A DNA stretch of 64,000 nucleotides from Iodobacter ciconiae (lineage in GTDB: Bacteria > Pseudomonadota > Gammaproteobacteria > Burkholderiales > Chitinibacteraceae), in contig NZ_CP034433.1 in the NCBI RefSeq assembly GCF_003952345.1, positions 3,472,001 through 3,536,000 of the forward strand, written 5' to 3'. Positions 26,646 through 55,027 of the stretch are shown in pieces (the first letter of the stretch is position 1; every line of letters starts with the position of its first letter). A program made the translations under genes and the position numbers. The notes below the pieces were generated by a model. That model was given only the letters and a program-made list of their open reading frames with translations. It was not told the DNA's origin and made no database searches.

Positions 26646-29534
26646 ATGTCGCAATTTAGTCGTTTTATGCTGGCTGCTATTCCAGCCGCCTTTATTTCAG
26701 CCCAGGTTTTTTCTGCTCCTGAGTGGACAGCTTCTTCTACTTATACTGCAGGTCAAACCGTAAGCTATTCTGGGAAAGATTGGAAAGCGAAGTGGTGGAC
26801 GCAAGGTAATGTGCCGGGTGCTGAGCAGTGGGGCCCTTGGGAGCCGATTGCCAGTGACTCGTCTACCCCTTCGCCAACACCAGCACCAACAACGGCTCCA
26901 ACGTTAGAGCCTGCTCCAGCACCAACACCAGCCGGTTGTTTTCTGGCATGGGTGGCAACGACGGCTTATTCCGGTGGTCAAAGTGTGACTTATGATGGCC
27001 GTAATTATAAAGCACAGTGGTGGACACAGGGCGATGTGCCGTCCAGTAATGTAGGGGCAGGCAAGCCTTGGTTAGATCTGGGCGCTTGTGGTTCAACTCC
27101 AACTCCGACTCCGACTCCAACTCCAACTCCGACTCCGACTCCAACTCCGACTCCGACTCCGACTCCGACTCCGACTCCAACTCCAACTCCGACTCCGACT
27201 CCGACTCCGACTCCAACTCCAACTCCAACTCCGACTCCGACTCCGACTCCGACTCCGACTCCGACTCCGACTCCGACTCCGACTCCGACTCCGACTCCGA
27301 CTCCAACTCCAACTCCAACTCCAACTCCAACTCCAACTCCAACTCCAACTCCGACTCCAACTCCAACTCCAACTCCAACTCCAGTCCCTGCTCCCGCTCC
27401 AAGCGTTGCTTGTCAGCCTGAGGGTTTGGTGACAGATGTTGCAAATGTGCCTTATTGTGATGTGTATGATGCAAACGGCCGGGAGAAGCTGCCAAACAAT
27501 ATGAAGCGTCGCTCAATTGGCTATTTCACTAACTGGCGTAATTCCGGGCCGAATTCTTATCTGGCCGCAGATATTCCATGGAATGACATTACCCACGTGA
27601 ATTATGCCTTCGCTCATATCGATAGCAATTGGCAGGTTTCGGTAGGTAATACTGCGGATCCTAACAACTCTGCCGTTGGTATGACTTTTGACGATAAAAA
27701 AGCTGATCCTAAATACGCGCTAGACCCAAATCTGCCGTACAAAGGCCACTTTAATATGCTGCATAAGAACGCGCCTAAAGGCGTGAAGCTGTTGCTGTCG
27801 GTGGGGGGCTGGGCTGAAACGGGGGGGTATTTTAATGATGCAGATGGCCGTACGGTCAGCGGTGGCTACTATGCATTGACTAACGATGCGGCAACAGGCG
27901 CAGTTCGTCAGGATAGAATTGATATCTTTGCTAAGTCGGCGGTTGCCTTCCTAGAGAAATATGGCTTTGACGGTATTGATCTTGATTATGAATATCCAAC
28001 ATCAATGAATGATGCGGGTAATCCGGAAGACTGGAAAATCGGTAATGCCCATCGTGGTGAATTGTGGAAAGGCTATATGGCTCTGACCAAAACACTGCGT
28101 GCCGAGTTGGATAAGGCGGCAGCAGCAAAAGGTAAGTACTACATGTTGACGATTGCGTCCCCATCATCTGGCTATTTATTGCGTGGCATGGAAGCCATGC
28201 AGGCAGTTAAATACCTAGATTACGTCAATATGATGACGTACGACTTGCACGGCGCATGGAACCACTTTGTGGGCCACAATGCACCGTTGTACGATACAGG
28301 TAAAGACAATGAAATTGCCGATGCCAAAATTTATTCGGGTGGCGATGCGCATTATTACAATTCACAAGGCTATCTGAATATTGACTGGGCATATAAATAC
28401 TTCCGTACAGCTCTTGCGGGAGGGCGCATTAACATTGGTTTGCCCTACTACACCCGTGGTTCACAAAATGTAGCGGGTGGCACTAATGGTTTATGGGGGC
28501 TTTCTGCTCTGGCCGATCAAACCAAGTGCTATCTCGGTACTGGCGGGAATCTTGGCCCGGATGCACTGAGTGTAAAAGCGGGCGCACCCTGCGGTTTAGG
28601 GGCCCAGGGGATTGATAATCTCTGGTTTGATCGGGATGCTGCTGGTAATGAAATGTATGCTGGTGTTAATCCGCTGTGGCATGTTAATAACCTTCGTGAT
28701 GGTCTGAGTGCACCTTACTTTACTCAGTATGGTCACGATCAAAGCCGTCCAGAAGCCAAAGTTCGTGGCTCTTACCAGGAAAATTATGACGATGTCGCTA
28801 AGTCTTCCTGGCTATGGAATCCAACCACCAAAGTGTTCTTGTCGACTGAAAATGAGCAATCCTTTGCTGCAAAGGTTCAGTACGCCATTGATCAGGGCGC
28901 GGGCGGGATCATGTTCTGGGAAATGGCAGGGGACTACAGTAAGCCATCAGAAAATGGCTTGGGTTATTACGCCATGGGCAGTACGCTGACCAAGCTAGCA
29001 GCCGCTAAGCTGCGTGCAGCCGTACCTTATGGCATCAAAGCTGGCGACGAGAAATTTGTCCGCCCGGCAGATTTGCTAGATATCTCGGTCGATATGGTTG
29101 GGTATAAGCCTAAGGGTGATGATAACTACCCGCTTGCTATTGGGCTTAAGCTGAAAAACAATTCAACGATTGATTTAACCGGTGCAAAGGTTGCATTCAA
29201 TGTTGCGCCATCCACTCCGTTGATTCCTTCCGAAGTTCAATACCTCAAGCCAAGTGATCCACCTGTAGGCAATGGTGTAGAGAATTTAGTAGATATTTAT
29301 AGCGGTGGCACTTGGACAGCCACAACGGCCGGTACAAAAACAGGCAATGTTGGTGGTTTGCCAGATGGTTTTCATCGTCTGACTTATGCGATGAAAGATT
29401 CAGGCTGGGGTGTTGCAGACTTTAGTGCAGGAAAAACTATCACTATCGGCATGCGTGTATTTATGCCGCTAACGGTACCTAGCGACATTACTATTACTTT
29501 GCCAAATGGCAAGGTATACGGGGTTAAGCGCTAA
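26646..29534 (+). CDS. secreted modular chitinase (two CBM5/12, Thr-Pro linker, GH18, ChiC C-terminal domain)
   Basis: Extracellular endochitinase. The 962-residue product has a signal peptide (cleavage likely after QVFSA, residue 24). Two chitin-binding CBM5/12 modules lie at about 25-68 ([26 protein letters not shown]) and 98-148 ([27 protein letters not shown]). A pure Thr-Pro linker follows at 151-246, then a GH18 catalytic domain (about 275-805) and a C-terminal ChiC-type domain (about 815-962). The catalytic motif is DGIDLDYE at 442-449, Glu449 being the acid; SVGGW near 380, MTYDLHG and [10 protein letters not shown] also fit. GGATGGAGAA precedes the ATG. It stands alone with its own terminator. 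Confidence 0.97.
27096..27383 (+). repeat. 48-copy hexanucleotide repeat ACTCCR inside the chitinase gene
   Basis: 288 bp made of 48 tandem ACTCCG or ACTCCA units, encoding 48 Thr-Pro pairs with no interruption. The A/G third-base variants form blocks rather than a random mix, as expected from local duplication. Gain or loss of units keeps the frame and only changes linker length. Confidence 0.97.
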
Positions 29535-29900: not shown

Positions 29901-34632
<4,732 letters not shown>

Positions 34633-34765
34633 ATAACCTGAGACGCGTGTGCGCGACGGTATAATCTACCCAGATTAGAAAACTAGATTTGAAATGTAAG
34701 ACATTACTTCTTCTATTGAACTGAACGCGTTGTGGAGCAATACACACAACGAGTTACCCCGTTAA

Positions 34766-34882
34766 AGTCTGGCGACCATAGCGAGGTGGTCCCACTCCTT
34801 CCCATCCCGAACAGGACAGTGAAACACCTTAGCGCCGATGATAGTGCAGATTACCTGTGTGAAAGTAGGTCATTGCCAGACA
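34766..34882 (+). rRNA. 5S ribosomal RNA
   Basis: About 117 nt. AGTCTGGCGACCATAGCGAG at the 5' end pairs with TTGCCAGAC at the 3' end, and the central TCCCATCCCGAACAGGACAG and AGCGCCGATGATAGTG segments are typical of proteobacterial 5S. It lies about 130 nt after the 23S gene, closing the operon. Confidence 0.96.
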
Positions 34883-42314: not shown

Positions 42315-42337
42315 CACTCCTTTATTGTGCAGGAGTG
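42315..42337 (+). promoter_or_regulatory. hairpin enclosing the Shine-Dalgarno sequence of the binding-protein gene
   Basis: CACTCCT (42315-42321) and AGGAGTG (42331-42337) pair perfectly around a 9-nt loop. The right arm contains the AGGAG that lies 6 nt before the ATG at 42342. When folded, the ribosome-binding site would be hidden, so initiation could be controlled by temperature, a protein, a small RNA or a ligand. Confidence 0.6.
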
Positions 42338-42341
42338 ATGC

Positions 42342-43433
42342 ATGAATTTACTTCGTCATTTTTTTATCCTGATTTTGTTATTAAGTAGCTCATCTTCCTG
42401 GGCTATTTCGGTTTTATTTATTAATCCGGGCAAAGAAAGTGAAGCATTCTGGGTCAATGTCAGCCAGTCTATGGCTGCGGCCGCTCAAAATCTGGGTATG
42501 GAGCTGAGAGTGGTTTATGCCGAGCGTGATCATTTGCGCATGCCTTCTCTTTTGCAGCAAACGCTTGATCAGGGACCAAAACCAGATTATTTAATTGTGG
42601 TCAATGAAAGGCAAATGGCTCCTCCTTTATTGGCGATTGCCGAGCGAGCACAAATTCCAACATTACTTACACTTAATGATTTAACGCCGGAGCAGATTAA
42701 GCAATTCGGCGCTCCCCGAACGCATTTCAAATATTGGCTGGGAAGTGTCTTTCCGGATAATCAGCAGGCGGGCTATTTAACGGCTAAGGCTTTATTAACC
42801 CGGCTGGTGCAAACAAAGAAACCTGGCGCTAACGGTCTTTATCAGTTATTGGCGATTGCAGGGGATAAATCGACGCCAGCATCGCAAGATCGTGTATTGG
42901 GTTTACAAAGGGCGTTGAAAGAGTTTCCTAATGTGGAGCTGAAGCAAATCGTCTATGGTAATTGGCGCAGGGGGCTTGCTGCGGAGCAGATGAATGTATT
43001 GCACGATCGTTACCCCGATGTTGCCGCCGTCTGGTGTGCTAATGATTTGATGGCTTTTGGGGTGATCTCCAGTTTGGAGCAAAGAAGGGGGCCGCGTAAG
43101 GAGGTATTTGTCTCGGCTATTAATTACTCCAATGATGCAATTTCAATGATTAAAAATGGCCGCTTGACTGCTTTATCAGCAGGGCATTTTATGGTGGGGG
43201 CCTGGAGTATAGTGCTGCTGTATGATTATGCACATGGTCGGGATTTTGGCAGGCAGCAGGGTACGCAAATGCAATTGCCTTTATTGAGTTTGGTAAGCGT
43301 ATCGAAGGCGGGTTTATTTGCTGAGCGGCTTAGCCCGGAGGGCGTTCAAAAAATTAATTTTACCCGCTATAGCAAAGTGCTTAATCCCAAAATAAAGCAG
43401 TATGATTTTTCTTTAGAGTCTTTATTACAATGA
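42342..43433 (+). CDS. periplasmic substrate-binding protein (type 1, sugar-binding-like)
   Basis: Secreted periplasmic binding protein of the LacI/ribose-binding fold (Peripla_BP type). The 363-residue product has a signal peptide ending SSSSSWA at about residue 21. It then has the fold's first strand ISVLFINPGKESEAFW, a domain with YLIVVNERQMAPPLLAIAE near 85, GDKSTPASQDRVLGLQRAL near 175, VAAVWCANDLMAFGVIS near 228, and a C-terminal FTRYSKVLNP segment. There is no ABC permease or ATPase nearby. Instead its stop codon overlaps by 4 nt the start of a membrane GAF-GGDEF protein, so it most likely delivers a ligand signal to that receptor. Ligand unknown. Confidence 0.88.
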   Translation: MNLLRHFFILILLLSSSSSWAISVLFINPGKESEAFWVNVSQSMAAAAQNLGMELRVVYAERDHLRMPSLLQQTLDQGPKPDYLIVVNERQMAPPLLAIAERAQIPTLLTLNDLTPEQIKQFGAPRTHFKYWLGSVFPDNQQAGYLTAKALLTRLVQTKKPGANGLYQLLAIAGDKSTPASQDRVLGLQRALKEFPNVELKQIVYGNWRRGLAAEQMNVLHDRYPDVAAVWCANDLMAFGVISSLEQRRGPRKEVFVSAINYSNDAISMIKNGRLTALSAGHFMVGAWSIVLLYDYAHGRDFGRQQGTQMQLPLLSLVSVSKAGLFAERLSPEGVQKINFTRYSKVLNPKIKQYDFSLESLLQ

Positions 43434-45283
43434 GTGCACGCAAGCATTTTCAGCCAATAGCACAGCGGCTAAGTAATATTTTATATCGCATTGGTTTTTT
43501 GCTGATGCTTGTTATTGTGATGGTCTATGCCGTTCTTTGTTATTTTGATGTAGCCGATAATTTACACGAGCAGCTGGTGGGCCTTGCTCAGGAGCACCGC
43601 CCCAGGCTGAGTGCTGCATTGTGGGATATTGATCCGATTGCTCTGACCGAAGAGCTTGATAATCTTCTGGCTGTAAATAGCGTGGCAGGTATTGTACTCA
43701 CCACACCCAGTGGTGCCCGCTATATCAGGGGGGAGACTGATGAGGTTGCTAAGAAATTAAGATATTCGGTTGAATTAATGTACAGGAGCAGCAGTATTCC
43801 TGTCGGACGGTTAACACTGATTAGTGATCGTTATGAAATCTGGAAGCAAGTTGCTTATCGCGTGTTTCCTTTTGCTCTTGCACAACTGCTGTTTGTAATG
43901 GGGCTTTTATTTGTTTTACAACTGTTTTTGCGCAAAGTGGTATTGCGGCGTTTGGATGCATTGACCATTCATACTCATATTTTGCAGCATGGCCATTTAG
44001 ATACGGCTCCTCCTTCTCCCTTATTTGAAAGCCCGGTTCGGGATGAGCTGGATAATTTGCTGCAAGGCTTTGCTAATTTACAAGATAATTTATTGCATCA
44101 GCAGCAGCAGCGTGGTCAATTAATTCATGCTCTGGCAAAAAATCGTGATCAGTTAGAAGTCGAAGTCGCGCAACGTGCCGATGAATCCTTTTATTTATCG
44201 GGCTTTTTGCAGCTGTTATCCAGAGATACTGCACGTTGTTTAAGTATGTTCCCGGATGGTACCCAATATGCTTTAGAGCAAACCTTAAAAGAAACAGGCC
44301 AGCTGATGGGACTGGATGCCTTGGTGGTGGTGCATTTTGCAGATGGTCACCATAAAGGCGCTCTTTATTTCTGGGATAAAGATGATAAAAAAATACGCAG
44401 TGATTTTAATTTCGCTAAGCGCAATTTATTTGAATTGAGTAAAAAAAATCTTATTTCGCAAACTACTTTTATGGTGAATGCAGATGATGAATTATCGAAA
44501 GGAAGCGATGAGGCTGTATTATGCCGTGATCTGCATTTAAGTAAGCTGGCGGGCTTGTCTCTTGATTTTAATACGGAGCGCTTGGGGGTTTTATTTGCAG
44601 GTTTATCGGATCAGGACCGCCAGTATTCCGCGCTGGAAATGCGCTTGCTCCCTATGGTGGCCGGGCTGTGCTCCAATGTATTGGCGCATCATTGCCAGCA
44701 ATTGTCATTGCAGGAAACCCAGCATGCTTTGCTGCTTGCTAATACCCAATTGGCACATTTGACGCGTCATGATGCCTTAACCGGAATTGCCAACCGGCGT
44801 GTTTTTGATGAGCTGCTTGCCAAGGAAATGGCTAATGTGGCTCGCAAGAATCAGCCCTTATCACTGATCATTTTGGGCTTGGATTCATTTAAACAATATA
44901 ACGATAGTTTTGGTCACCACGAGGGTGATATTGCTTTGCAAAAAGTGGCAGCAGTATTGGGTAAGTTCGCCGAGCGTCCTGGTGATTGTGCTGCCCGGAT
45001 TGAAGGCAATGGGTTTGTTCTTTTACTGCCCAATACAGATTTACATATGGGTACATTACTGGCCGAGCGTATTCGTCTGGCGGTTATTAAACTCGGAATT
45101 TTACAGGAAGATGGCTCTGTTCTGACTATTAGCCAGGGCCTTGCTATTCATTCTGGAGCAGAAGAAGTCAGTGCTGCTGACTTCTTGCGCATGGCGGACA
45201 GAGCGCTTTATCGTGCCAAGCACCATGGTAATCAGGTGCAGGCGATCGGGTCTTTTAGCGACCTAAGCGCTGGCAGACAGTAG
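43430..45283 (+). CDS. membrane sensor with GAF and degenerate GGDEF domain
   Basis: 617 residues. A membrane helix at about 18-40 is followed by a periplasmic sensor of about 100 residues (with SAALWDIDPIALTEELDNLL) and a second helix at about 146-168. A coiled-coil/HAMP-like linker, a GAF-like domain (about 255-410) and a GGDEF-fold domain (about 445-610) follow. The catalytic GGDEF motif reads EGNGF (525-529), so cyclase activity is unlikely. The inhibitory-site RxxD, RPGD at 516-519, is kept five residues before it, and the IIGLDSFKQYND-type metal strand is largely kept (ILGLDSFKQYND). This pattern suits a c-di-GMP receptor. It overlaps the binding-protein gene by 4 nt, and its 3' end overlaps the convergent metF by 29 nt. 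Confidence 0.93.
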   Translation: MSARKHFQPIAQRLSNILYRIGFLLMLVIVMVYAVLCYFDVADNLHEQLVGLAQEHRPRLSAALWDIDPIALTEELDNLLAVNSVAGIVLTTPSGARYIRGETDEVAKKLRYSVELMYRSSSIPVGRLTLISDRYEIWKQVAYRVFPFALAQLLFVMGLLFVLQLFLRKVVLRRLDALTIHTHILQHGHLDTAPPSPLFESPVRDELDNLLQGFANLQDNLLHQQQQRGQLIHALAKNRDQLEVEVAQRADESFYLSGFLQLLSRDTARCLSMFPDGTQYALEQTLKETGQLMGLDALVVVHFADGHHKGALYFWDKDDKKIRSDFNFAKRNLFELSKKNLISQTTFMVNADDELSKGSDEAVLCRDLHLSKLAGLSLDFNTERLGVLFAGLSDQDRQYSALEMRLLPMVAGLCSNVLAHHCQQLSLQETQHALLLANTQLAHLTRHDALTGIANRRVFDELLAKEMANVARKNQPLSLIILGLDSFKQYNDSFGHHEGDIALQKVAAVLGKFAERPGDCAARIEGNGFVLLLPNTDLHMGTLLAERIRLAVIKLGILQEDGSVLTISQGLAIHSGAEEVSAADFLRMADRALYRAKHHGNQVQAIGSFSDLSAGRQ

Positions 45284-46648: not shown

Positions 46649-46705
46649 TTTTATTGAACTGCACCCCAAAAGTTGGACACCCGTCCATATTTTTGGGGTG
46701 TTTTT

Positions 46706-47236
46706 ATGTCCAAGTACACAACGCAATTCAAGCTTTCTGTCGTTCAGCAATATTTAACGGGCGAAGAAGGTATTAAAACGATTACTAACCAATATGGCAT
46801 CGAGCAGGCCATGTTTCGTCGCTGGGTGAGGTCGTTTCGCCAGCATGGTGAATCGGGTTTAGCCCCCAAATACAGTCATTACGATGCCGTGTTCAAACTC
46901 TCCGTGCTCCAGCACATGTGGGACAATCATCTTTCCCAGCAGGAAACTACCGCTTATTTTGATATTCGTAGCCCCACTTGTTTGAGCCAATGGAGCACGC
47001 AGTATTGCGCAGGCGGAATTGCTGCCCTTGAATCTGCGCCTAAAGGTCGAAAGAAATCACCCATGCCCGTTGCCGAAAATAACACTGCTCCCCTGCCGAT
47101 TGATGATGAAACCCGTAGCCGTGAAGAACTCATTGCAGAAGTCAAACGCCTCCGTTTAGAGGTGGCCTACATAAAAAAGTACAATGCCTTAGTTCAAGCC
47201 AAAGCCCAATCGGCACAGCAGAAACAGCACAAATAG
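46706..47236 (+). CDS. IS3-family transposase OrfA (helix-turn-helix protein)
   Basis: DNA-binding regulatory part of the transposase. The 176-residue product has two helix-turn-helix regions, the first in VVQQYLTGEEGIKTITNQYG and RRWVRSFRQHG (residues 10-45), the second near 65-100 (WDNHLSQQETTAYFDI). A C-terminal leucine-zipper-like helix (REELIAEVKRLRLEVAYIKK) follows, as in IS150-group OrfA. I chose the ATG giving MSKYTTQFKLSV; an upstream in-frame start would lie in the terminal repeat. Its stop overlaps the OrfB start by one nucleotide. Confidence 0.93.
   Translation: MSKYTTQFKLSVVQQYLTGEEGIKTITNQYGIEQAMFRRWVRSFRQHGESGLAPKYSHYDAVFKLSVLQHMWDNHLSQQETTAYFDIRSPTCLSQWSTQYCAGGIAALESAPKGRKKSPMPVAENNTAPLPIDDETRSREELIAEVKRLRLEVAYIKKYNALVQAKAQSAQQKQHK
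47173..47179 (+). other. programmed -1 frameshift site of the IS
   Basis: A AAA AAG, with AAA AAG being OrfA codons, is the classical slippery heptamer of IS3-family elements. From here the -1 frame is open without a stop through to the OrfB frame, so slippage would give the OrfAB transposase. Confidence 0.85.
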
Positions 47237-48072
47237 TGCTTGAATTAAGGCCGCAGTTTCCCTTGGCTGATTTGTTGAAACAAGCCGAGTTGCCGCGTAG
47301 CACCTTCTATTACCAGAAGCAGGCTTTGGCGGTGAGCGACAAGTATCAAAACGTCAAAACACAGCTTACAGCGCTGTTTACAGAGCATAAAGGGCGCTAC
47401 GGCTACCGGCGCATCATGCTGGCGCTGCGTAATAAGGGCGAATGGCTTAATCACAAAACGGTGCAGCGTTTAATGCAAGAGCTGGGTTTGAAGTCGTGCG
47501 TTCGGCCTAAAAAGTACCGTTCATACAAGGGTGAATGCGGCAAAATCGCGCCAAATATATTGCAGCGACAATTTAGTGCAGATAAGCCGAATCAGAAATG
47601 GGTAACCGATGTGACTGAATTTAACGTACAGGGAGAAAAGCTCTATCTGTCGCCAGTTTTGGATTTATACAATGGAGAAATTATCGCTTTTGAAATGGCG
47701 CGCCGCCCAGTATTTGCGCTGGTCAGTCAAATGCTAAAGAAAGCGATCGTTAAGCTGAGCCCGGATGAAAAACCACTACTGCATTCGGATCAGGGTTGGC
47801 AGTATCAAATGGCAAAGTATCGGCAGCAATTGGCAGGAAAAGGACTGGTACAAAGTATGTCAAGAAAGGGCAATTGCCACGATAATGCAACGATGGAAAG
47901 CTTCTTTGGTACGTTGAAGTCAGAGTTTTTCTACCAGGAAAAATTCACTAGTATTGAGCAACTGGAGCAAGGCATCGTGGACTACATTCATTACTATAAC
48001 CACGACCGAATCAAGTTGAAGTTAAAAGGGCTGAGTCCTGTTCAATACAGAACCCAGCCCTTGAGCACCTAG
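47236..48072 (+). CDS. IS3-family transposase OrfB (DDE integrase domain)
   Basis: Catalytic half of the transposase. The 278-residue frame begins with GTG overlapping the OrfA stop by one nucleotide, but the working enzyme is probably the frameshifted OrfAB. It has the HTH_21-type region HKGRYGYRRIMLAL near residue 50 and the rve catalytic core with Asp in KWVTDVTEFN near 135, Asp in LLHSDQGWQYQ near 190, and Glu in NATMESFFGTLKSE near 225, ending YYNHDRIKLKLKGLSPVQYR. All three DDE residues are present and no frame damage is visible. Confidence 0.95.
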   Translation: MLELRPQFPLADLLKQAELPRSTFYYQKQALAVSDKYQNVKTQLTALFTEHKGRYGYRRIMLALRNKGEWLNHKTVQRLMQELGLKSCVRPKKYRSYKGECGKIAPNILQRQFSADKPNQKWVTDVTEFNVQGEKLYLSPVLDLYNGEIIAFEMARRPVFALVSQMLKKAIVKLSPDEKPLLHSDQGWQYQMAKYRQQLAGKGLVQSMSRKGNCHDNATMESFFGTLKSEFFYQEKFTSIEQLEQGIVDYIHYYNHDRIKLKLKGLSPVQYRTQPLST

Positions 48073-52088: not shown

Positions 52089-52543
52089 GTCTTTGATCTT
52101 TGATAGGAAAGCCTCGGGAAGTCGCAATGATACCCAAAAACGACTTATTTTGCCTTGAATATCGGCAAAGTACGCGAACTAATATGGGTTTTTTAGCAGG
52201 AGATACTGGCTTGTGAAAGGTGTTTTCTGTGCTTTTTTATGTCGTTAATTTTGCGGAATATTTTAATAATGCCCAGGTGATTTTTTGTGTGTTAGATTTA
52301 TCCAAGTTTTTAATTTTAAGAAGGGCACCTTTGTAATTTGCTATCGCTGTTTTGCTGGATTTGTAATTATAAATGCTTAATTGGCAAGCTCGCAGGTTAT
52401 GCAGGCAGGCCGCAGCCTCGTTACCATTAAATTCCGCAATACAGGCAAAGCCCCTGGCTGGTTTCTGTGATTGATTGCTTCTACACTCGAGCTGCGCCTT
52501 TGAGCGTGGTGCTTTTAATATAAAAACGAGAAGGGAAGAGAAG
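52089..52543. other. intergenic region between purL and the GH20 gene
   Basis: 455 bp between divergent genes, presumably carrying both promoters. I see no well-spaced -35/-10 pair, no PurR-type palindrome and no recognisable riboswitch. Confidence 0.5.
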
Positions 52544-55027
52544 ATGACGCAGCCAGCGGGTGCACAATTACAGCTGAAGTGGGAATGCCTGACTAATCAT
52601 TACGGGGGTGATCACTTTTTAGCCGAGCTGACGATTACTAATCTGTCAGATGTCGCTTTAAGCGGGCAGGATTGGGCGATTTACTTCAATACCTGCCGTA
52701 AGATTAAGCCAGAAACTGTGCAGGGTGGTGTGGTGGTGGAGCACATAAATGGCGACGTTTCACGCTTTATTCCAGCTGCGGATTTTGCGGGCCTGGCTGC
52801 GGGCGCTTCGATGGTGGTTCGTTACCAGGGGATCTTCTGGGTGATTAACGAAACCGATGCACCGCTGGGTTTTTATATTGTTTATGACAATACGGTGGCC
52901 GATGCGATTGGTGATCCACAGATCGTGCCTTTCAGCCGCCCTGAGCAATGTAATCGTAATTTAGCGGATGTCGTGCCTTTGATGACGTCTGCATTACGTT
53001 TTGCTGAGAACCAGGCGCTCACGCTATTGCCTGCCGATGCAGTAGGCAAAATCACGCCAACACCGATAGAGGCGCGCTGGGATGCAGGTCAGTACCTGAT
53101 TACGGCGGCAACTTTGATTGTGCATGGTGAGGCGCTGGCTAAAGAAGCGGCGTTTTTGCGTGCTGCTTTGCGCGATGTCTCGGGTGTGGAATTACAAAGA
53201 GCCAGCCGTGGTGCAGGTATTACTTTGCAAATTGCAGCACTTGATGTGGCGCAAAGTGGTGCGCCGCTAGAGGCTTACCGCTTAGAAATTAGTGCCTCAG
53301 GCATTGTGATTAGCGGCGTCAGTGCGGCTGGCGTGATGAACGGTATTCAATCTTTGCGTCAGTTATTACCATTAGAAAGTTATCTTAATCCGCAGGCTAG
53401 CTTGGCCGTGCCTTTCGGCTATGTGCTGGATGCGCCGCGATTTGCTTACCGTGGCATGCATTTGGATGTGGGTCGCAATTTCTCTAGTAAAGAAACAGTG
53501 TTGCGTCTTTTAGACTGCATGGCCTTATATAAACTCAATAAATTTCACTTTCATTTAACTGACGATGAAGGCTGGCGCTTAGAGATCCCCTCTTTGCCTG
53601 AGCTTACCGAAATCGGCTCTTTGCGCGGCTTTAGCCCTGATGAAGAAAGCAGCCTGCTGCCAAGTTTTGGCTCTGGAGCAGTGGTGCAGGGCTCGTCGGG
53701 CACAGGTTTTTATACCCGTGCCGAGTTTATCGAGATTTTGCAATTTGCTACCGCCCGCCATATCGAAGTGATCCCAGAAATCGACGTGCCCGGCCACGCC
53801 CGCGCTGCGATCAAGGCGATGGAATTGCGTTATAAGCGCTTAAAGGCCGCTGGCAATCTGGCTGGCGCAGAAGAATATCTGCTCAGCGATTTTAACGACC
53901 AATCTAAATATGAATCGGTGCAGCTGTGGCATGATAATGTGATGTGTATCGGTCTGGAATCTTGTTACCGCTTTATTGAAACGGTTCTCGTGGAGATGAA
54001 GGCGATGTTTGCCGAGGCGGGCGCGCCACTGACTACTATGCATACCGGTGGCGATGAAGTGCCGCATGGTGCCTGGGAAGCTTCTCCGGTTTGTCAGGCT
54101 TTTATGCAAGAACAGGGCATTACTTCGATTCAGGACTTACAAAATTACTTTCTGGCGCGTTATCGCATCCTGTTGCAAAAGCACAATCTGGTCTTTGGCG
54201 GCTGGGAAGAGATTGCTTTATCCAAGCAAGATGGCAAGCATGGCCCGAACCCGGAATTTGTGGACGCCAAATTCCAGCCCTATGTCTGGAATAATGTCTG
54301 GGGCTGGGGGCAGGAAGACTTTGCCTATCAGCTGGCCAATGCGGGCTATCAGGTGGTGCTGTCCAATGTGACCAACTTGTATTTCGATTTGTCCTACGCC
54401 AAAGATCCGCAAGAGCCGGGCTATTACTGGGGGGGCTTTATTGAAACGCGCGGCGCCTATGAGTTCTGCCCGCTGGATATTTACACTACCGCTACGGTTG
54501 ACCTATTTGGCAATCCGCTCAATGCAGATAGCCTTGCCAAAATGCAGCGCCTAACGCCTGAGGGTACTAGAAATATCTTGGGTATTCAGGGCCAGCTTTG
54601 GGGCGAAAATGCGCGTAGCCAAAAGCGGGTGGAATATCTTGCAATGCCACGAGTGATTGCACTGGCAGAGCGTGCCTGGGCGGCTGATCCGGGTTGGACC
54701 AAGATCGGCGATAAAGCCGAACAGGCAGCAAAAATGGATGCTGATTGGAACCAGTTTGCAAACCGCCTGGGGCAGCGCGATATGCCGCGTCTGGATGGTT
54801 TTGTCGGAGGTTACGGCTACCGTATTCCCTTGCCGGGCGTGCAGCGTGTGGATGGCAAGGTTGCACTGAATGTATCCGCGCCGGGTTTGGCACTGCGTTA
54901 TACCGTGGATGGCAGTGAGCCCAATGTGCAATCGGCGCTTTATACCGAGCCCTTTGCAGCAGATGGGGCTGTAAAAGCCGCCAGCTTCAGCCGCACAGGG
55001 CGTAAGAGCAGGACAGTTGTGGCTTAA
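52544..55027 (+). CDS. GH20 beta-N-acetylhexosaminidase (chitobiase type)
   Basis: Cleaves GlcNAc from the non-reducing end of chitobiose and chito-oligosaccharides. The 827-residue product has the CHB_HEX N-terminal domain from residue 10 (LKWECLTNHYGGDHFLAEL, GQDWAIYFNTCRKI), a GH20b domain (about 165-300), the GH20 catalytic barrel (YRGMHLDVGRNFSS near 305, HFHLTDDEGWRLEI near 340, HTGGDEVPHGAWE with Asp504-Glu505), and the CHB_HEX_C domain (LRYTVDGSEPN near 785). GGGAAGAG precedes the ATG. Unlike the Vibrio and Serratia enzymes it shows no signal peptide or lipobox, even if an upstream start is used. It complements the chitinase at 26.6 kb. Confidence 0.95.
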   Translation: MTQPAGAQLQLKWECLTNHYGGDHFLAELTITNLSDVALSGQDWAIYFNTCRKIKPETVQGGVVVEHINGDVSRFIPAADFAGLAAGASMVVRYQGIFWVINETDAPLGFYIVYDNTVADAIGDPQIVPFSRPEQCNRNLADVVPLMTSALRFAENQALTLLPADAVGKITPTPIEARWDAGQYLITAATLIVHGEALAKEAAFLRAALRDVSGVELQRASRGAGITLQIAALDVAQSGAPLEAYRLEISASGIVISGVSAAGVMNGIQSLRQLLPLESYLNPQASLAVPFGYVLDAPRFAYRGMHLDVGRNFSSKETVLRLLDCMALYKLNKFHFHLTDDEGWRLEIPSLPELTEIGSLRGFSPDEESSLLPSFGSGAVVQGSSGTGFYTRAEFIEILQFATARHIEVIPEIDVPGHARAAIKAMELRYKRLKAAGNLAGAEEYLLSDFNDQSKYESVQLWHDNVMCIGLESCYRFIETVLVEMKAMFAEAGAPLTTMHTGGDEVPHGAWEASPVCQAFMQEQGITSIQDLQNYFLARYRILLQKHNLVFGGWEEIALSKQDGKHGPNPEFVDAKFQPYVWNNVWGWGQEDFAYQLANAGYQVVLSNVTNLYFDLSYAKDPQEPGYYWGGFIETRGAYEFCPLDIYTTATVDLFGNPLNADSLAKMQRLTPEGTRNILGIQGQLWGENARSQKRVEYLAMPRVIALAERAWAADPGWTKIGDKAEQAAKMDADWNQFANRLGQRDMPRLDGFVGGYGYRIPLPGVQRVDGKVALNVSAPGLALRYTVDGSEPNVQSALYTEPFAADGAVKAASFSRTGRKSRTVVA

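Follow-up and report, generated by a model that had tools for sequence, protein, structure and literature searches.

A periplasmic binding protein beside a GGDEF receptor with a broken active site in Iodobacter: a candidate former cyclase turned c-di-GMP receptor

In Vibrio cholerae, the polyamine-type periplasmic binding protein NspS signals via MbaA, a membrane protein of cyclic dimeric GMP (c-di-GMP) metabolism that is a working GGDEF/EAL enzyme, and in LuxP-LuxQ a ribose-type binding protein acts on a membrane receptor. In Salmonella, the binding protein ArtI is required for the ligand response of the membrane GGDEF protein STM1987, in a system with a dCACHE sensor and arginine (PMC8846402; this paper and the three others cited below are drawn on in excerpt). 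A second group is made up of proteins that have lost the GGDEF motif, namely PssE of Listeria, which also has an RxxD motif and binds c-di-GMP (PMC4125290), and PelD, PopA and CdgA, which are cited as c-di-GMP binders (PMC3974145); these proteins are tied to a polysaccharide operon, the cell cycle or predation. A stretch of 64,000 nucleotides of Iodobacter ciconiae (contig NZ_CP034433.1, positions 3,472,001 to 3,536,000; hereafter the window) carries a two-gene locus with a likeness to both groups, in which the gene of a periplasmic binding protein is followed by that of a two-helix membrane receptor whose GGDEF domain has a broken active site. The parallel with NspS-MbaA drawn in an earlier sequence-only reading of this DNA survives as a good functional analogy that includes the paired arrangement, but here the binding protein belongs to the ribose/LacI type, the GGDEF motif is dead and no EAL domain was found by Pfam in the receptor, whose C-terminal domain is GGDEF only. 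Compared with ArtI-STM1987, the sensor is CHASE5-like, the binding protein sugar-type and the motif dead, and in contrast to LuxP-LuxQ the output has a GGDEF fold instead of a histidine kinase. Unlike PssE, PelD, PopA and CdgA, the receptor has a periplasmic domain, a binding-protein gene of its own and orthologues with intact motifs in the same genus. We propose, with a probability of about 0.5, that it is a former cyclase turned ligand-responsive c-di-GMP receptor.

What has become of its active site? The motif reads EGNGF, a dead form of GGEEF, and five residues upstream of it stands RPGD, the RxxD motif of the I-site (RPGD-CAARI-EGNGF), with the same spacing as in WspR (RSSD-LAARY-GGEEF); both motifs and their normal distance are as the sequence-only reading had described them. 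Two further losses had escaped it. The first aspartate of the DxDxFK metal loop, which we take to be equivalent to PleD D327, is replaced by Gly483, and the arginine after the C-terminal AKxxG, presumably the equivalent of PleD R446, is deleted in the alignment of five of the eight Iodobacter orthologues, including that of the window. Neither the GG[DE]EF motif nor the metal-binding DxD of active cyclases is therefore present (EGNGF and Gly483 stand in their places), and the GGDEF domain is probably devoid of cyclase activity. That the altered motif still supports catalysis is barely credible: first-position variants such as AGDEF and SGDEF can be active (PMC3974145), but the changes in the window hit the third and fourth positions plus the metal aspartate, and not the first position alone. 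Could the former active site, its catalysis lost, now sense GTP or another guanine nucleotide? Asn491 and Asp500, which we take from work on PleD to contact the guanine, are retained together with Lys488 and Lys597 in all eight Iodobacter receptors, but the site should bind phosphate and metal poorly because the metal ligand at position 483, the third and fourth motif residues and the R446 equivalent have been lost, and a nucleotide sensor of this kind seems quite improbable.

Binding of c-di-GMP at the I-site is what we infer in the first place. A dead A-site with RxxD five residues upstream is the sequence hallmark of I-site receptors derived from dead GGDEF domains, and the receptor carries it. 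WspR binds a c-di-GMP dimer via R242 and via R198 of the neighbouring domain, and either mutant purifies nucleotide-free; a WspR GGAAF mutant furthermore binds c-di-GMP supplied to it, according to unpublished data mentioned there (excerpt of PMC2270323). The window counterparts of R242 and R198 are R516 and R472, both of which are retained, as is D519. PssE, with DKDDA in place of the motif and with RxxD, binds c-di-GMP with a dissociation constant of 0.79 uM (PMC4125290). The solved GGDEF domains nearest to that of the receptor, at about 40% identity, are those of WspR and GcbC. Among these two, GcbC is an active cyclase. So is WspR (PMC2270323), whereas the receptor described here probably is not. 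The comparison with PelD made in the sequence-only reading is accordingly weak; what the two share is the loss of the GGDEF motif. No PelD entry was recognised among the 49 PDB sequence matches or the 50 fold matches listed, and no pel genes among the five scanned neighbours. A PelD-like receptor was set aside as a candidate on the basis of the listed matches, absence from which is no proof.

The order in which the motifs changed can be followed across 30 receptors, i.e. the 29 paired ones introduced below and one from Salinivibrio. For 16 of them (L146-L161) the reading frame was chosen by the word GGEEF, an earlier choice that admitted other motifs having given the same GGEEF frames. GGEEF is intact in 24 of the 30 receptors and dead in six, which form a single Iodobacter clade (support 100/99) in a tree that has long branches outside the genus and includes one row, G734, with an unusual and possibly damaged C-terminus. 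Within the dead clade, G007 has RSGD with GEKEF, the window RPGD with EGNGF, and four species RTGD with [ED]GNEF; G001 and G004 have RAGD with an intact GGEEF. Since G001 and G004 carry RxxD and the outgroup motifs are all intact, the I-site predates the catalytic loss. RxxD at the I-site spacing occurs in all eight Iodobacter receptors and in none of the 22 others. The tree of the GGDEF domain is poorly resolved and does not separate an origin of the I-site by mutation from one by domain exchange.

How stable is the association of the two genes? In the order, 33 loci were compared, comprising 23 order-search matches (from 22 of 399 genomes), seven other Iodobacter loci and three further family members. 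A GGDEF receptor adjoins the binding-protein gene, i.e. lies on the same strand with its start within 400 nt, in 29 of these loci, with GGEEF in 23 of the paired receptors and a dead motif in six. The remaining four loci are those of G014 and G620 and two of G738; the neighbour in G620 resembles a histidine kinase by motif only. G002 lacks both genes, and is the only one of the nine Iodobacter genomes to do so. The sequence-only reading had named missing co-occurrence in related genomes as grounds for abandoning the pair; what was found is pairing and, in G002, joint absence. A class-wide draw yielded binding-protein matches in six of 369 genomes and added four loci, two of them from one genus and without a neighbouring receptor, a third of that genus cut by the contig end, and a fourth with a kinase-like protein (judged by eye) on the opposite strand. 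Among plasmids, where eight of 18 hits were opened, two Salinivibrio records pair the binding protein with a cyclase, those of Cupriavidus and Azoarcus pair it with histidine kinases, as LuxP-LuxQ does, a Mesorhizobium record has it with an ABC transporter, and three records have no annotated receptor directly 3' of it. Near members of the family therefore stand mostly beside membrane receptors, with an output domain that varies further away. Judged from the sampled loci, the two genes were paired long ago, and the cyclase motif of the receptor is as a rule intact.

Is the dead domain still held by selection? The ratios of nonsynonymous to synonymous substitution rates (omega) are rough, the synonymous divergence between the window and its sisters being about 1. 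For the GGDEF domain, pairwise omega is 0.060 within the four [ED]GNEF receptors, 0.089 between these and the window and 0.081 in the intact pair. The maximum-likelihood estimates are 0.121 for the six dead copies together, 0.106 when the window is left out and 0.059 for the four [ED]GNEF copies. Branch tests covered six stretches on each of two foreground branches, and their p values, like those of the relative-rate tests below, are uncorrected. A branch model of three taxa gives the GGDEF domain an omega of 0.124 on the window branch and rejects omega = 1 with p = 4.2e-6; that value is likewise rejected for the sensor (0.075), the HAMP/linker part (0.081) and the binding protein (0.077). Because omega = 1 is rejected and omega is low in the dead copies, the GGDEF domain is not free to drift. 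A sequencing error or pseudogene was considered and rejected, as the frame is intact and the GGDEF domain is under purifying selection.

Several observations nevertheless weigh against a c-di-GMP receptor. RxxD occurs in 16 of this genome's 21 GGDEF domains (15 counted by script and the sixteenth, L094, by eye from its sequence) and the eight Iodobacter orthologues agree at 92 of 166 GGDEF columns, so that retention of RxxD is not significant by itself. An arginine one residue further out (RxxxD) is found in 13 of the 22 non-Iodobacter receptors, and the contrast with Iodobacter may therefore represent a one-residue shift there and not a full absence; this weakens the contrast with other genera and leaves untouched the sequence of changes inside Iodobacter that underlies the proposal. 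No output partner was found. Finally, the R472 position is a cysteine in the dead copy G008, and constraint is domain-wide instead of being confined to the I-site (the six dead copies agree at 112 of 166 columns), both of which would also suit a different role. Perhaps the dead GGDEF domain serves as a structural or dimerisation module, or as the partner of an active cyclase, and has no need of c-di-GMP; GG[DE]EF is the motif in 17 of the genome's 21 GGDEF domains, which are candidate partners, and CdpA is cited as requiring its degenerate GGDEF domain but not c-di-GMP (PMC3974145). In the window, however, the I-site core and the second arginine are all present, and no such partner was identified; we consider a mere module unlikely, albeit well worth keeping in mind.

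A further set of doubts concerns the window lineage itself. Rooted with G007, the comparison assigns 61 unique amino-acid changes to the window receptor and 28 to that of G005 (p = 6e-4), with ratios of 8:0 in the HAMP/linker part and 17:6 in the GGDEF domain, compared with 60:65 for synonymous changes and 17:18 in the binding protein; replacing G005 by G008 or G003 gives a similar excess (67:34 and 62:29, respectively). Whole-receptor omega is 0.159 versus 0.096 (p = 0.03). The GAF-like domain reaches an omega of 0.42 on the window branch, which is indistinguishable from neutral (p = 0.24) and differs from the background with p = 0.005, or about 0.03 after correction for six stretches, and pairwise omega of the GGDEF domain is higher, at 0.169 and 0.190, in the pairs with G007. 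In the window lineage, the coupling part may be undergoing change or becoming looser, and signal transfer could be in the process of being lost. Taken to its end, this acceleration, which is specific to the receptor and accompanied by two extra active-site losses (D483G and E528G), would mean a decaying receptor that no longer serves any function in the window lineage. Such decay is improbable, given that the reading frame is intact and that the GGDEF domain, sensor, HAMP/linker part and binding protein all reject omega = 1, and the rate contrast is a non-significant 39:31 (p = 0.4) when G001, which is more distant, serves as the outgroup.

As for the parts of the pair (Table 1), the two genes, both on the + strand, overlap by 4 nt (ATGA, 43430-43433); the overlap, the strand and the two open reading frames (ORFs) can be read directly and agree with the sequence-only reading. 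The binding protein matches Peripla_BP_4 (Pfam E value 9.9e-28), begins with a signal peptide that ends in SSSWA without a lipobox cysteine, as judged by eye, and has a predicted structure with a mean local confidence (pLDDT) of 89.8. Its closest solved structure is 3h75 (phmmer E value 4.2e-68; Foldseek E value 1.4e-28; template-modelling (TM) scores 0.83/0.92), a periplasmic sugar-binding protein of Pseudomonas fluorescens from the same family, for which we know of no ligand or partner. The fold matches are ribose, allose and galactofuranose binders, which suggests only loosely a sugar-like ligand. The absence of an ABC transporter, as asserted in the sequence-only reading, holds for the local neighbours, which is where it was checked, with no permease or ATPase found by Pfam among the five proteins scanned (39.6-46.1 kb). 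A binding protein of ABC transport was rejected on that basis; the distant Mesorhizobium homologue is the exception.

The receptor's GGDEF match (Pfam E value 2.2e-38) is far beyond chance, and its predicted structure is moderate only (pLDDT 71.1; predicted TM score 0.40). No Pfam GAF model matched the full-length receptor; searched alone, the middle domain gave GAF PF01590 at an E value of 0.012, below the cut-off, and no sequence match to any solved structure at E values up to 1, and its GAF-like order of strands and helices is our own reading of the low-confidence model.

Table 1. Positions in the window of the features of the binding-protein/receptor pair.
Feature	Position	Strand	Basis
Ribosome-binding site AGGAG of the binding-protein gene	42331..42335	+	read from sequence
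Periplasmic binding protein, 363 aa, Peripla_BP_4, ribose/LacI-type fold	42342..43433	+	Pfam, model, Foldseek
Membrane receptor with two helices, 617 aa, broken active site in the GGDEF domain	43430..45283	+	
Periplasmic sensor domain, about residues 41-148, CHASE5-like	43550..43873	+	Pfam E value 1.9e-4 (residues 53-140), below cut-off; long flanking helices in model
HAMP-like linker, about residues 169-222	43934..44095	+	Pfam E value 0.0017 (residues 166-222), below cut-off
Middle domain (GAF-like), residues 263-430, with relaxed or accelerated evolution on the window branch	44216..44719	+	
GGDEF fold, residues 446-601, nearest WspR and GcbC	44765..45232	+	
R472, equivalent of WspR R198	44843..44845	+	alignment; role from PMC2270323 (excerpt)
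Metal-ligand position, Gly483, only in the window among eight Iodobacter receptors	44876..44878	+	orthologue alignment
I-site RxxD (RPGD), residues 516-519	44975..44986	+	
EGNGF at the A-site (GGEEF in dead form), residues 525-529	45002..45016	+	

Some neighbouring features deserve mention in their own right. A histidine kinase that contains a GAF domain (L103 in G002, L104 in G005) shows 26-28% identity to the first 443 residues of the receptor; it was found in seven Iodobacter genomes, with no match in the window's genome or in G001, and the L103 and L104 kinases adjoin a small gene that by eye resembles another periplasmic binding protein. Another degenerate GGDEF protein, L094 (C1:3540689-3541141), about 4.7 kb past the end of the window, reads EGPQF with RRED at the I-site, by eye, and is the weakest GGDEF match of the genome; other non-canonical motifs there are NGADF (L093, C1:2903725) and SGDEF (L085, C1:2732015). 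The 3' ends of the receptor gene and of the convergent MTHFR gene share 29 nt (45255-45283), as they do in G001, G003, G004, G005, G006 and G008; in G007 they share 12 nt. On the 5' side of MTHFR lies an IS3-like two-frame transposase (by eye; 46673-48072), and the sister loci L012-L014 hold no ORF with these starts among ORFs of at least 180 aa. A GH18 chitinase (26646-29531) and a GH20 hexosaminidase (52475-55024), about 23 kb apart, flank the pair, and the window also holds a complete rRNA operon (16S, 23S and 5S; 29901-34881).

How might a former cyclase turned receptor work? The ligand-loaded, sugar-type binding protein would contact the CHASE5-like periplasmic domain of a receptor dimer, and the HAMP-like and GAF-like parts would relay the change to the GGDEF domains. 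A c-di-GMP dimer at the I-sites would bridge these domains, the loaded binding protein would shift their arrangement from outside, and the bridged state would set the engagement of a protein partner encoded elsewhere; in the ancestral form, the same movement could have switched a product-inhibited cyclase. The window has five Rfam matches, and none of them is a c-di-GMP riboswitch. It is tempting to see the genus as a living series, leading from the intact motif of G001 and G004 through GEKEF in G007 and [ED]GNEF to EGNGF with Gly483, with the partner kept throughout. The receptor at its end point would combine an external ligand, sensed via the binding protein, with internal c-di-GMP, and it might also work inside-out, with c-di-GMP deciding whether the binding protein is held; this wider picture is tentative, and we would not yet bet on it.

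Neither inactive GGDEF receptors with RxxD nor pairs of a binding protein and a GGDEF protein are new, and inactive GGDEF proteins account for 24% of cyclases according to a figure quoted in PMC3974145. Their combination in a genus that has both intact and broken orthologues did not turn up in searches of open-licence PubMed Central papers, nor did CHASE5 with GGDEF, and Iodobacter with c-di-GMP turned up there in phage reviews only. The transition from enzyme to receptor is rarely visible, and here intact and broken orthologues stand beside the same partner in sister species. Because the two forms coexist and the I-site precedes the loss, the step from cyclase to receptor is testable on natural proteins. 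If the proposal is true, non-model Neisseriales would possess a two-input receptor that reads a ligand outside the cell and c-di-GMP inside it.

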